Assembly: GCA_903904005.1 (NCBI GenBank)
Contig: CAIVAR010000025.1
Location: 36,834-100,833 of the forward strand
Reading direction: 5' to 3'
Length of the DNA stretch: 64,000 nt
Source: an uncultured Anaeromyxobacter sp.
Lineage (GTDB): Bacteria; Myxococcota; Myxococcia; Myxococcales; Anaeromyxobacteraceae
This document shows positions 55,629 to 60,582 of this stretch, piece by piece (position 1 is the stretch's first letter; each line of letters begins with the position of its first letter). The notes beneath the pieces are model-generated. The model did not search any database, was not told the DNA's origin, and saw nothing but the letters and a program-made list of their open reading frames with translations. The translations under genes were made by a program, and so were the position numbers.

Positions 55629-56948
55629 ATGCAACCTCTCCGCTCCCTGCTCCTCGCCGCCCTGCTCGCGGCGCCCGCGCTGGCCGGCGCCGCCGGCCCG
55701 GGCTGGATCTCCGACGACTGGCCGAAGGCGCTCGCCGAGGCGAAGGCCCGCAAGGTCCCCGTCTTCGTGGACGCCTGGGCCCCCTGGTGAAAGACGTGCA
55801 ACTTCATGCGCGCCACGGTCCTGCGTGACCCGGCGCTCGTGAAGATGGCCGGGCGGTTCGTCTGGCTCGAGATCGACACCGAGAAGGAAGGCAACGCCGG
55901 GTTCCTCGAGAAGTTCCCCATCGAGGTGTGGCCCACGTTCCTCGTCATCGACCCGGCCACCGAGAAACCGGTGCTGAAGTGGCTGGGCACCGCCACGGCG
56001 GCCGACCTCTCCGGGCTCCTCGCCGACGGTGAACGGGCCGTGAAGGGCGGGGCCGGGGAGAGCGCCGACGCGCTGCTGGCCCGCGCCGACCGGGAGAACG
56101 CCGCCGGCCGGGGCGCCGAGGCCATCGCGCTCTGGGAGAAGGCGCTCGTCGCCGGGGGGCCGTCATGGCCGCGCCGGGCCCGGACGCTCGAGTCGGTGGT
56201 GGCCGGGCTGCAGTCGGCCGGGCAGCCCCGCCGCTGCGCCGAGGTGGCGCTCGCCGAGGCGCCGGGGATGGCGCGCGGACAGTCGTTCGCCAACGTGGTC
56301 TCGATGGGGCTCTCCTGCGCCACCGGAACCGACGAGCCCTGGGGCAAGGAGGCGGCCGCGAAGCTCGAGCCGCTCGCCGTAGAGGCGGTGAAGCTGCCGG
56401 ACGTGCTCGCCGACGACCGGGCTGGCCTCTTCGACGGGCTCGTCACCGCCCGCGAGAAGGCCGGCGACGAGAAGGGGGCCCGGGCCCGGGCCGAGGAGGA
56501 ATGGTCCTTCCTCGTCGCCGAGCGGGCGGCGGGGAAGACCCCCGAGGCCCGCACCATGCTCGACTCCTGGATCGTGGGGGCGGCCATGGACCTCCACGAC
56601 CCGGCACGGGCGATCCCGCTGCTCCTCGAATCGGAGAAGGTGGCGCCGACCGACTACAACCCGCCCTACCGGCTCGCCATGCTGTACCTCGAGGTGAAGC
56701 GGACCGACGAGGCGCTCGCGGCGAGCGACCGGGCGCTCCCGCTCGCCTACGGGCCACGGAAGATCCGCGTGCTGGCCCAGCGTGCCACCATCCTGGAGGC
56801 GAAGGGGGACCTCCCGGGCGCCCGCAAGGCGCTCGAGGCGGCCATCGCCCACGCCGGGACGCTGCCCAAGGCGCAGCAGAACGCCCGCCTGGCGAAGCGG
56901 CTCGAGGAGCGGCTGAAGAAGATGCCGGCGGGCGGAGGCGCGCCCTAG
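55629..56948 (+). CDS. Candidate selenoprotein: secreted thioredoxin-TPR protein, UxxC active site
   Basis: One frame of 440 codons is interrupted only by TGA at 55788-55790 (codon 54). Residues 1-21 are a clean signal peptide. A thioredoxin-like domain follows: VPVFVDAWAPW, then the TGA, then KTCNFM, i.e. U54-x-x-C57 exactly where CxxC belongs, with the cis-Pro in VWPTFLV (Pro102). From about 145 the protein is TPR-like helices (YRLAMLYLEVKRTDEALAASDRAL). Starting at the Met60 codon (55806) would lose the signal and active site. A SECIS-like hairpin follows the TGA. The alternative is a nonsense mutation, but 385 intact codons downstream argue against decay. Confidence 0.82.
55808..55836 (+). 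promoter_or_regulatory. SECIS-like hairpin downstream of in-frame TGA (thioredoxin gene)
   Basis: CACG (55814-55817) pairs with CGTG (55824-55827), leaving the loop GUCCUG. An outer GCGC/GCGC stem (55808-55811 with 55833-55836) encloses it. The loop begins 27 bases after the TGA, and GGUCC lies at the apex. Bacterial SECIS elements have a short stem and a G/U-containing loop about 16-37 bases after the UGA. Confidence 0.6.
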
Positions 56949-57718
56949 AAGGCCCAGCCCACCTGGCCGACCGCCGAGTGCGCGCCGAACGGTGCCCACT
57001 CGACGAGGAGGTCGATGCCGAGCGGCAGGCTGGCCGCGAGGCCGAAGGCCACCTGCCAGTGGGCCACGTCGGTTCCGGTGGTCGAGGCGCCGGCGAGCGT
57101 CCAGAAGACCGGGCCCCCGAACACCTTGGCGCCCACGTAGGGGGCGACGATCCCGGCGATGGACTTCCCGGCGCTCACCGAGAGGCCGGCGTCGAGCGAG
57201 GTGAGCGGTGCCCGGGTGCCGTCCGGCGCGGTGGTGTTCACCCCGGAGGCGGCGAGGCTCGCCGAAAGCGCCACGAAGGGCCAGGGGCCGCTGCCGTCGA
57301 GCGGCAGCCAGGTGGCGCCGAAGCGGGCCAGCCAGCCCGGATCCATGGTGTACGTGACGCCGTTCGCCACGAGGCTTCCCGAAATCACCGCGCCCGCGCC
57401 GGCGGTGACCGACCAGTCCCGGCCGAGGCGTCGGGTGACGGAGACGGCCACGCTGCGCTGGTCGAACGGGGCCGTCACTTCGCCGAACCGGAGCTCGGAG
57501 GACAGCCAGCCGTAGGCGGCGGCCACCCGCCACACCGGCGCGGCGCCGGAGGACGGTGCGCTCCCGTCCACGCCGTCGTCGGCGTCGCACAGGCTTCTCG
57601 CCATTGCCGTGGGACCCACGGGTGCGGAGACGCCTCAACCGAAGGCGTTGGGCGGGAAGGCGAGCGCCGCCGCCGCCGCTGCGACGAGCGCGGCACTCCT
57701 CCACGCGATGGTGGGCAT
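56945..57718 (-). CDS. Beta-barrel-like envelope protein with in-frame TGA: candidate selenoprotein or broken gene
   Basis: From ATG 57718, 2 bases after the lipoprotein gene stop, one frame encodes a signal peptide (MPTIAWRSAALVAAAAAAL...NAFG). TGA follows at 57637-57635 (codon 28), then 229 further open codons. The rest alternates hydrophobic/polar strands (VWRVAAAYGWLSSELRFG, SVAVSVTRRLGRDWSVTAGAGAV) and ends VGWAF, like an outer-membrane barrel. A GTG at 57619 could start the downstream part but would leave it without a signal peptide. If the TGA were Cys, NAFG-C would resemble a weak lipobox. A near-perfect SECIS-like hairpin follows the TGA. Selenocysteine insertion is likely but not certain. 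Confidence 0.6.
57607..57621 (-). promoter_or_regulatory. SECIS-like hairpin downstream of in-frame TGA (barrel gene)
   Basis: On the minus strand, CCGTGGG and CCCACGG are perfect inverted 7-mers around a single T. They form a 5- to 6-bp stem with GGUCC or GUC as the loop. The loop starts 18 bases after the TGA. This is the spacing and loop type I recall for the E. coli fdhF SECIS (loop GGUCU). Confidence 0.65.
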
Positions 57719-58456: not shown

Positions 58457-59584
58457 TCAGGGAACCCGGCACCGGACCAGGTTCACCTCGAGCGGCCCGT
58501 TCCAGAGCCGGTGGGTCCACTCGGGCCGGAGCCCCAGGTTGCGCTCCAGCAGGAGATTCCCGGAGAGTACGAGGAGCGACCAGCCATGGAAGCGCCGGGC
58601 GGCCTCCCCGAGGCCACGGTAGAAGCCGGCCAGCTGGAGGGGCTGCCCGCCGATCCGCTCCCCGTACGGGGGGTTGGTGCAGAAGGTGCCCCCCTCCCCG
58701 AAGGGCTCCACCGAGCGTGCGTCGGCGAGCGAGATGGCGACGTCCTCCTCCACCCCGGCCGCCCGTGCGTTGCGCCGGGCCGCGTCGAGCGCATCCTCGG
58801 AGAAGTCGCTGGCCCGGATGGGCGCGGGCGCCCGGGGCAGCGCCCCGACCCGCGCCTCCTCCTTCATCCGATCCCAGGTCGACTGCCACTCCCCGCGGTA
58901 GCGGGGCCAGCGCTGGAAGCCGAACGGGCGCCGGATCCCCGGGGCGATCCGGCGCGCGGAGAGGGCGTGCTCCACGGCGAGCGTGCCCGACCCGCAGAGC
59001 GGGTCCAGGAAGGGGCGGTCGAGCGCCGCCTCGCCGAGCGCCAGGATCGACGCGGCCAGCGTCTCCTTGAGGGGGGCGTCCTGGATCGCCGTCCGGTAGC
59101 CCCGCCGGTAGAGCGGGGCCCCGGAGAGGTCGAGCGAGAGCTCGGCCTGGCCCCGCGCCAGGTGGACCACGATCCGGACGTCCGGGTCCCGGGTGTCCAC
59201 GTCCGGGCGGGCGCCCAGGGCGTCGCGCAGCGAGTCGACCACGCCGTCCTTCACCTTGAGTGCGACGAAGCCGGCGTGGTGCAGCCCCGGGGCGGTCCCG
59301 GTCGCGTCCACCGCGAGCGTCGTCTTCACCGTCAGCCACTCGGTCCAGTCGACGGTGCGCACGCCGTCGTAGAGCGCGGCGGCGTCGGGGCAGGGGAAGG
59401 CCGACAGGGGGGCGAGGATCCGCATCGCGGTCCGGGACCAGAGGCAGGCCCGCATCCCGTCCTCCATGCGCCCCTCGAACGTGACCGCCCCGCGCGCGCC
59501 GCGCAGGTGGCGCATCCCCAGGGAGGCGAGCTCCCCGCGGACCGCGCCCTCGGTTCCCCGGGCGCATGTGGCGACGAGCCTCAA
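58457..59584 (-). CDS. rlmL: RlmL-type 23S rRNA (guanine-N2) methyltransferase
   Basis: 375 residues: an N-terminal ferredoxin-like/THUMP region (to about residue 160), then the SAM-dependent methyltransferase with FLDPLCGSGTLAVEHAL and catalytic NPPYGER. The length fits stand-alone RlmL (G2445) without the RlmK domain fused in E. coli. Overlaps the upstream diguanylate cyclase stop by 4 bases. Confidence 0.9.
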   Translation of the reverse strand: MRLVATCARGTEGAVRGELASLGMRHLRGARGAVTFEGRMEDGMRACLWSRTAMRILAPLSAFPCPDAAALYDGVRTVDWTEWLTVKTTLAVDATGTAPGLHHAGFVALKVKDGVVDSLRDALGARPDVDTRDPDVRIVVHLARGQAELSLDLSGAPLYRRGYRTAIQDAPLKETLAASILALGEAALDRPFLDPLCGSGTLAVEHALSARRIAPGIRRPFGFQRWPRYRGEWQSTWDRMKEEARVGALPRAPAPIRASDFSEDALDAARRNARAAGVEEDVAISLADARSVEPFGEGGTFCTNPPYGERIGGQPLQLAGFYRGLGEAARRFHGWSLLVLSGNLLLERNLGLRPEWTHRLWNGPLEVNLVRCRVP

Positions 59585-60582
59585 GCGAGCGGCTCCGGCG
59601 TGTTCCAGGTGCCGGCGCGCCAGCGATCCTTGCCAGACCGCTTGGCCGCGTACATGAGCTCGTCGGCCCGGAGGATCATCTCGTCGACCGAGGCCGGAGG
59701 GTGGAGGAAGGTGGCCACCCCGATGCTGAAGGTCACCGCGTCGCCCCGCCCGGCCAGCGTCTCCCGCAGCTGGAGCCGGAGGCGCTCGGCGAGCGCCACG
59801 GCGCCGGCGCTGTCCACCTCGGGAAGGAGCACGCCGAACTCGTCGCCGCCCAGGCGGGCCACCGTGTCGAGGCCGCGCACCGCCTGCCGCAGCGTCCCGC
59901 CCACGGCCGAAAGCACGCCGTCGCCCGCCACGTGGCCGAACCGGTCGTTCACGAGCTTGAAGTCGTCGCAGTCGATGTAGAGCAGCGAGAGGGGCCGGCC
60001 GTGCCGGCGTCCGCGCTCGAGCTCGAGCCAGGCGGCCTCGACGAAGGCCCGCCGGTTCGAGAGCGAGGTGAGCGGGTCGGTCCGGGCCGCATGCTGCTCG
60101 TGCAGGAGCCGCTTCTTGAAGGCATCAAGCACGACGGCGAGGAGCAGGAAGACCCCGAGCTGCTGCGCCGCGTTCCAGGTGAGCACCGGCGGGGCGAGCA
60201 GCTCCCCGGACATGCGGGAGGCCTCGACGCCGCAGGCCGTGGCGAGGATCGCGAGCCCGATGCCGGGCCCCAGGCCGGCGAAGAAGGTCCCGAAGCCGAT
60301 GGGGCCGAGGTAGAGCAGGGTCACGTCCACGCCCGGGCCGGTGTAGACGTCCGCCGCGGCGACCGTGGCCACCACACCCGCCGAGATGGCGGCGATGCCG
60401 GCGGGCGTGAAGCCGTCGAGCCACACCTTCACCTCGCGACCGATCTCGCGGGTGGGGTTGGCCCCCTTCCCCGGCGCATCCCCGCGCGTGGCGCTGGTGT
60501 CCCGTTCCGTGATGACCGCTCCAAGCCCGTCCGCGGGCGACCGGTGTCGAACTCCCGGAATACCTTCCACCTTTTCCGACAC
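59581..60582 (-). CDS. Membrane diguanylate cyclase (GGDEF)
   Basis: 333 residues from GTG 60582. Transmembrane segments at about 60-80, 87-120 and 136-155 form a MASE-like sensor. The GGDEF domain follows (DPLTSLSNRRAF; GGDEF at 245-249), with an RGLD inhibitory site (236-239) five residues before GGDEF, so product inhibition by c-di-GMP is likely. Makes c-di-GMP at the inner membrane. Confidence 0.93.
   Translation of the reverse strand: MSEKVEGIPGVRHRSPADGLGAVITERDTSATRGDAPGKGANPTREIGREVKVWLDGFTPAGIAAISAGVVATVAAADVYTGPGVDVTLLYLGPIGFGTFFAGLGPGIGLAILATACGVEASRMSGELLAPPVLTWNAAQQLGVFLLLAVVLDAFKKRLLHEQHAARTDPLTSLSNRRAFVEAAWLELERGRRHGRPLSLLYIDCDDFKLVNDRFGHVAGDGVLSAVGGTLRQAVRGLDTVARLGGDEFGVLLPEVDSAGAVALAERLRLQLRETLAGRGDAVTFSIGVATFLHPPASVDEMILRADELMYAAKRSGKDRWRAGTWNTPEPLA

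Follow-up and report, generated by a model that had tools for sequence, protein, structure and literature searches.

When analysing a 64,000-nucleotide stretch of DNA from an uncultured Anaeromyxobacter (hereafter the window), we found a gene whose in-frame TGA codon, at the first position of a thioredoxin active site, is very probably read as selenocysteine (Sec); its product would be a thiol-disulfide reductase, predicted to be exported and to carry a helical TPR arm. The preliminary description of this DNA had proposed a selenoprotein, and that reading is supported by the presence of Sec or Cys at the active-site column of relatives, by the Sec machinery of the genome, and by a SECIS-like element. 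The genome to which the window belongs comprises 4.56 Mb in 186 contigs and is 98% complete.

The frame at 55629-56948 carries a single in-frame TGA, located at codon 54 in the context FVDAWAPW-U-KTCNFM, which confirms the earlier claim of a TGA inside a thioredoxin active site (WAPW-U-KTC, codon 54 of 439). Equally correct was the expectation that the usual gene call would begin at Met60 and lose the active site, as the standard call covers 55806-56948 and yields a protein of 380 aa. The features of the gene are as follows.

55629..56948, plus strand: predicted selenoprotein gene of 439 codons, ending in TAG, with the in-frame TGA as codon 54
55629..55694, plus strand: predicted N-terminal signal peptide, codons 1-22 (end approximate), with the hydrophobic stretch SLLLAALLAA
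55707..56051, plus strand: thioredoxin domain, residues about 27-141
55788..55790, plus strand: TGA codon, predicted selenocysteine U54 (TGA in 24 and Cys in 48 of 72 loci read)
55797..55799, plus strand: second active-site residue C57 (Cys in 72 of 72 loci read)
55802..55844, plus strand: putative SECIS-like hairpin, apical stem 55817-55820 with 55827-55830, loop 55821-55826, drawn from fold, covariation and synonymous conservation
55806..55808, plus strand: Met60, start of the standard gene call; column 60 is also the start of 93 of the 120 listed database homologues
55932..55934, plus strand: cis-Pro 102 (Pro codon in 72 of 72 loci read)
56052..56921, plus strand: helical TPR arm, residues about 142-431, from Pfam TPR families and the predicted model
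56235..56237, plus strand: C203, conserved Cys of the TPR arm (67 of 67 copies reaching the site among 70 loci)
56316..56318, plus strand: C230, conserved Cys of the TPR arm (67 of 67 copies reaching the site)

Pfam searches of the read-through protein assigned residues 27-109 to Thioredoxin_7 (E 3.8e-11, 43.4 bits, cut-off 27) and residues 347-407 to TPR_12. In the predicted structural model, the thioredoxin and TPR parts are joined in one confident fold (mean pLDDT 93.8), with the UxxC motif at the N-terminal end of a helix and with the cis-proline, the arrangement expected of a UxxC oxidoreductase. The best structural matches of the arm are TPR superhelices. The cis-Pro and the TPR-like helices noticed in the preliminary description are thus borne out, the former by Pro102 in every locus read and the latter by TPR_12 and the helical arm of the model. 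A signal peptide upstream of the TGA had been claimed as well, and a signal-peptide-like hydrophobic N-terminal stretch was present in 22 of 22 TGA loci, as scored with our own script rather than a signal-peptide predictor; in the model this region forms a helix at residues 6-14. From this N-terminus the protein is predicted to act in the periplasm. A lipobox-like motif, which may indicate a membrane-anchored lipoprotein, occurs in 21 of 48 Cys loci vs 0 of 22 Sec forms.

Within the arm, C203 and C230 lie on neighbouring helices of the model (H200-213 and H218-232), and both are present in 119 of 120 database homologues (among the matches listed, 120 of 581). Their conservation suggests a possible second redox or structural disulfide.

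We chose reduction over oxidation as the likely direction of the reaction on the basis of similarity to the C-terminal domain of DsbD. A selenoprotein working instead as a dithiol oxidase or isomerase, similar to PDI or DsbC, is an unlikely but serious alternative, in favour of which stand the best PDB sequence match, 2kuc, which is named a putative disulphide-isomerase, and the motif WxxWUxTC, which is unlike the classic WCGPC. Against it, the structural matches include the DsbD C-terminal domain and DsbH, and the closest curated models after TsoB are DsbD, TrxC and thioredoxin, all below cut-off (none of the 11 NCBIfam matches of the protein reached its curated cut-off). Neighbouring genes were rejected as a clue to function: no conserved redox partner was seen beside the thioredoxin gene in 13 regions, and the recurrent neighbours are an RlmL-like methyltransferase gene (58457-60582, minus strand) and a GGDEF gene, which accompany it in 8 and 6 of the 13 regions, respectively.

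To return to the predicted seleno-reductase, the codon aligned with its TGA was read in relatives. The protein was matched in 84 of the 99 genomes searched, the own genome included, and 72 loci were read; L009 and L010 repeat L012 and L013, leaving 70 distinct loci in 68 genomes, a set that leaves aside most matches of the remaining 16 genomes and most weaker second matches. Of the 72 loci, 24 (22 genomes) have TGA at column 54 and 48 have TGC or TGT (46 genomes, including L069, a short thioredoxin that is perhaps no orthologue), and no other residue occurs there. The homologue comparison suggested in the preliminary description thus yielded Cys or TGA and nothing else, and the in-frame UGA is aligned with a conserved redox Cys of homologues, as in known selenoproteins; columns 57 and 102 are invariant. 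Within the taxonomic family of the window, the best match has TGA in 19 of 19 genomes whose match reaches column 54 (24 genomes were searched, of which four gave no match and one the C-terminal part only). Outside the family, the TGA form occurs in three order-level relatives (G024, G031 and G069). Some genomes of the family also hold weaker thioredoxin matches of about 30% identity, which fall outside the column-54 count.

A sequencing error behind the TGA was rejected, since the codon recurs at column 54 in 22 genomes and in independent assemblies, some of the copies lying on single large contigs (G005, G006, G011, G019 and G022). A single gain of Sec was also rejected: a tree of 64 of the 70 loci, from which six partial or duplicate rows were excluded and in which several long branches were flagged, needs at least two changes of state between Sec and Cys, in whichever direction. 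One TGA-bearing copy (L066, G010:C271) has its frame broken at codon 166 by a second TGA, through either assembly error or decay.

If the TGA were a true stop, the cell would make only a TPR protein restarted at Met60. The standard gene call, which starts at 55806, fits this reading, and so do database homologues: among the matches listed (120 of 581), 94 begin past column 57 and therefore past the active site, 93 of them at the Met60 column and one at column 149, and CxxC is present in the other 26. However, in 22 genomes a signal-peptide-like N-terminus and the active-site context are kept before the TGA, all 48 loci read that lack TGA as the aligned codon have Cys instead, and the predicted model unites both parts in one fold. 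The codons upstream of the TGA are also constrained in most pairs, with dN/dS of 0.13-0.46 over mature codons 24-53 among three congeners (the window's own genus includes G002 and G003); in two of eight pairs the values were 1.1 and 0.83 over codons 2-53, and 0.54 and 0.67 in the mature part. We therefore regard termination at the TGA as highly improbable. A pseudogene was rejected by the constraint on both sides of the TGA in most pairs together with the confident single model. That the short database copies were cut by the TGA was seen for the genomes read, and we infer the same for the rest of the 94. Most database copies of the closest relatives, among the matches listed (120 of 581), are without the active site; a group of predicted exported redox enzymes thus stands in the databases lacking the very residues of its chemistry.

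The preliminary description had asked for selA, selB, selD and selC, and the search of the own genome returned all of the machinery: selA (469.6 bits, in two pieces), selB (286.7 bits, or 307.2 when neighbouring matches in frame are added), selD (387 bits) and tRNA-Sec (80 bits), as expected of a genome encoding selenoproteins. The SelD is of the Sec type and bears a TGA codon itself, at U11 of the matched stretch (L052:1501-2427, minus strand, equal to G000:C7:13565-14491), and its gene carries a textbook hairpin, GGCGCAG-GUC-CUGCGCC. An AhpC-TSA (peroxiredoxin-type) match with one in-frame TGA, at G000:C94:20458-20829, is probably another selenoprotein. All 22 TGA genomes have selA, and 21 of them a tRNA-Sec match of more than 70 bits; the remaining one, G010, is 80% complete and gave no strong tRNA-Sec match. 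The TGA form occurs in none of the 13 genomes that gave no selA match, five of which match the protein (G029 and G076 were read as Cys; G043, G059 and G079 are seen only in match rows, none of which contains a stop). The machinery fails to predict which form is used: selA was found in 86 of 99 genomes overall and in 44 of the 46 Cys genomes read, and as a general requirement it does not discriminate between the forms.

Unusually strong conservation of silent sites marks the stretch just behind the TGA. Over codons 55-80, the synonymous excess is 0.210 in TGA genes vs 0.070 for the whole gene, while the same codons of Cys genes give no signal (0.121 vs 0.130; 19 TGA genes, three partial ones excluded, and 28 selected Cys genes). 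Several codons are fixed in TGA genes (Val64 GTC in 22 of 22, Ala74 GCC in 22 of 22, and Arg76 CGG in 20 of 20 where the residue is Arg), and three congeners show 0-1 silent changes in the 26 codons after the TGA vs 85-106 in the 350 codons downstream. Positions +3 to +56 after the TGA were then folded against synonymous resampling. The 20 TGA loci, a set that leaves out two near-copies, gave a mean z of -1.60 (p<=0.05 in 9 of 20, leaving 11 individually non-significant) at fold energies of -17.4 to -32.0 kcal/mol, vs a mean z of -0.06 for 47 Cys loci (p<=0.05 in 1 of 47); six other stretches of 18 TGA genes, used as controls, gave mean z between -0.75 and 0.27, and in each of them p<=0.05 was reached by 0-4 of the 18 genes.

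The hairpin itself pairs 77.1% of cells on the 20 TGA rows vs 72.1% in shuffled ones, with a covariation score of 0.123 vs 0.060 and two-sided changes in 13 vs 5.5 cells (each of these last two values was reached in 0 of 500 shuffles). On Cys rows (24 of 48), 60.0% of cells are paired and the hairpin stands out less (29 and 44 of 500 shuffles). Of 19 distinct rows, 11 have C-G at the apical pair 30-43, 5 have G-C and 3 do not pair there; several of the lower pairs are lost in roughly half of the rows. RNAalifold, on the same TGA rows, proposed an additional small hairpin at columns 8-25. The published bSECIS model has a stem-loop 16-37 nt past the UGA, a stem of 4-16 bp, a loop of 3-9 nt and an MFE <= -7.5 (PMC13188914). 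The consensus falls within its spacing and size, with the loop after 30 nt, an apical stem of 4 bp and a loop of 6 nt; where a G is called for in the first two loop positions, the consensus loop opens with CU or UU. The loop G appears only in an alternative fold, drawn for the gene in the window, which is less stable by 4.8 kcal/mol. Putative elements in a subset of genes described with that model also depart from it (PMC13188914). Rfam, at the gathering threshold, gave no match within the window, and a 9-mer shared with the selD hairpin was set aside as weak (3 in the window vs 2.04 expected). Comparison thus supports a SECIS-like hairpin in the conserved stretch, one without the textbook loop G.

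Readthrough of the UGA as Cys, Trp or another residue, though Cys at a Cys column would be chemically workable too, is exceedingly improbable, considering that TGA is also the terminator of 8 of the 18 TGA-bearing copies that run to full length (a count without the broken G010 copy and three others truncated at a contig end or at the edge of the stretch read), that the genome holds a complete Sec system, and that the RNA fold stands out in TGA copies only.

With the UGA taken as Sec, we infer the following course of incorporation, chemistry and function. The products of selA, selB and selD and the tRNA-Sec, whose genes are present, would supply the machinery, and the hairpin just past the UGA, a structure drawn by comparison, would likely recruit SelB as its putative ligand. 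The predicted signal peptide would direct its export through the inner membrane. By analogy with thioredoxin chemistry, the U54 selenolate would attack the disulfides of client proteins in the envelope, leaving a mixed selenenyl-sulfide for C57 to resolve. A DsbD-type membrane protein may then re-reduce the seleno-thioredoxin (the own genome has a DsbD gene, 186 bits), while the TPR arm may hold the client, with C203/C230 serving as a structural disulfide or a second redox station.

Tail to tail with the thioredoxin gene, and overlapping it such that the stop codons share bases, lies a gene that looks like a second, apparently undescribed selenoprotein, likely of the outer membrane.

56945..57718, minus strand: predicted outer-membrane beta-barrel selenoprotein, TGA at codon 28 (57635-57637)
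57605..57623, minus strand: bSECIS-type hairpin of this gene, loop GUC, 19 nt past the UGA

The in-frame TGA is present in both congeners, and the gene was matched in 23 of 146 genomes searched. Among the 20 of 23 loci that cover the column, 19 have TGA, one has Gly (GGA) and none has Cys; among the 19 is L142, which carries an early TAG and is excluded from the protein alignment. The Gly locus, a beta-barrel homologue at G004:C2:43709-44437 (L124), means that Sec was lost or never present in G004. The residue before the TGA is Ala in 16 and Gly in 3 of 19, and position -3 is Ala in 19 of 19, which we take to be a signal-peptidase I pattern; Sec would then be residue +1 of the mature protein. 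A Cys follows 12-16 residues past the TGA in 19 of 19, and it is the only Cys of the matched part in 18 of 19. Among 134 database matches listed, 130 start past the TGA column, and the other four have Cys (P0190, ...ARA↓CGVSA), Gly (P0203) or, in two short cases, a gap.

The predicted model, in which pLDDT averages 84.8 and is low over residues 21-29, forms a beta-barrel and structurally matches outer-membrane barrels. Pfam gave only a sub-threshold OMP_b-brl, the window's protein matched no NCBIfam model, and no relatives were found among viral contigs. The consensus hairpin, CCCGU(C/G)G-GUC-C(C/G)ACGGG, has its loop 19 nt after the UGA and agrees with the published bSECIS model (PMC13188914). 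When the 19 copies were folded singly, the loop had 3 bases in 14 and 5 bases in 3, and the remaining 2 took another shape. The hairpin pairs 94.1% of cells with a covariation of 0.274 vs 0.102 (0 of 500), and 3 pairs vs 2.0 are changed on both sides (28 of 500). Fold energy was no better than in synonymous controls (mean z -0.26 and 0.20; 0 of 19 better) because the peptide itself nearly forces the hairpin. The case for a SECIS here is one of codon covariation, Val/Ile GTC/ATC going with CCG in 13 of 13 and GTG with CCC or CTC in 6 of 6.

We saw the two genes tail to tail only within the genus of the window, and five other genomes (G004, G060, G062, G083 and G096) have both genes on different contigs, so that a joint function is a guess. 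A rather doubtful extension would make the two an envelope selenoprotein pair, in which the neighbour founds a new family with Sec at the mature N-terminus (AxA↓U-G-I/V) and, with the Cys 12-16 residues on, forms a selenosulfide switch or metal site, and in which electrons might pass from U54/C57 through C203/C230 to such clients as a selenium redox relay across the envelope.

In comparison with known systems, the DsbD C-terminal domain and DsbH have Cys instead of Sec and no TPR arm. Trx7/PDZ (seleno)protein NF041199 and selenoprotein TsoB NF045694 share the thioredoxin-like domain, and the window protein scores 13.0 bits against the former (cut-off 300; its own motif is CxxU) and 33.7 bits against the latter (cut-off 805). 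Genome G019, which we take to be Anaeromyxobacter dehalogenans strain 2CP-C, has one TGA-bearing thioredoxin in PF00085 and PF13899 searches, of the same thioredoxin-TPR family, and three TGA-bearing AhpC-TSA matches. For A. dehalogenans, a 2006 survey counted peroxiredoxin (3) and thioredoxin (2) (PMC1794560); with the peroxiredoxin number equal to ours, the orthologue is probably already within its "Thioredoxin (2)", an entry that leaves unmentioned the TPR domain and export, both predicted for the window protein.

A 2026 inventory lists 119 selenoprotein families or subfamilies (PMC13188914, Table 1), among them UxxC thioredoxin (PF00085) and UxxC thiol:disulfide interchange (PF13098) selenoproteins, which have in common with the window protein the thioredoxin fold, Sec at the first and Cys at the fourth position. 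Its table names no thioredoxin-TPR protein, and the beta-barrel family of the neighbour is absent from it and from NCBIfam; open-licence PMC literature likewise yielded neither a thioredoxin-TPR selenoprotein nor a beta-barrel selenoprotein of the neighbour's kind. The inventory has only a couple of outer-membrane families, the GSU2204-type MtrB/PioB beta-barrel and the FCYXU TonB-dependent receptor (PMC13188914), which share the location predicted for the neighbour but are other families with other motifs, and Sec right past a signal peptide is not in their table description. The neighbour is the more novel object of the two and, if confirmed, would be an outer-membrane selenoprotein family with Sec at the mature N-terminus. 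The thioredoxin-TPR protein belongs to a well-known kind, the UxxC thioredoxin-fold selenoproteins, in which it is unusual for its mis-annotation and its TPR arm; new here is that arm with a second invariant Cys pair. Since its Sec and Cys forms are found within related genomes of one order, the benefit of selenium to an envelope thioredoxin is directly testable.
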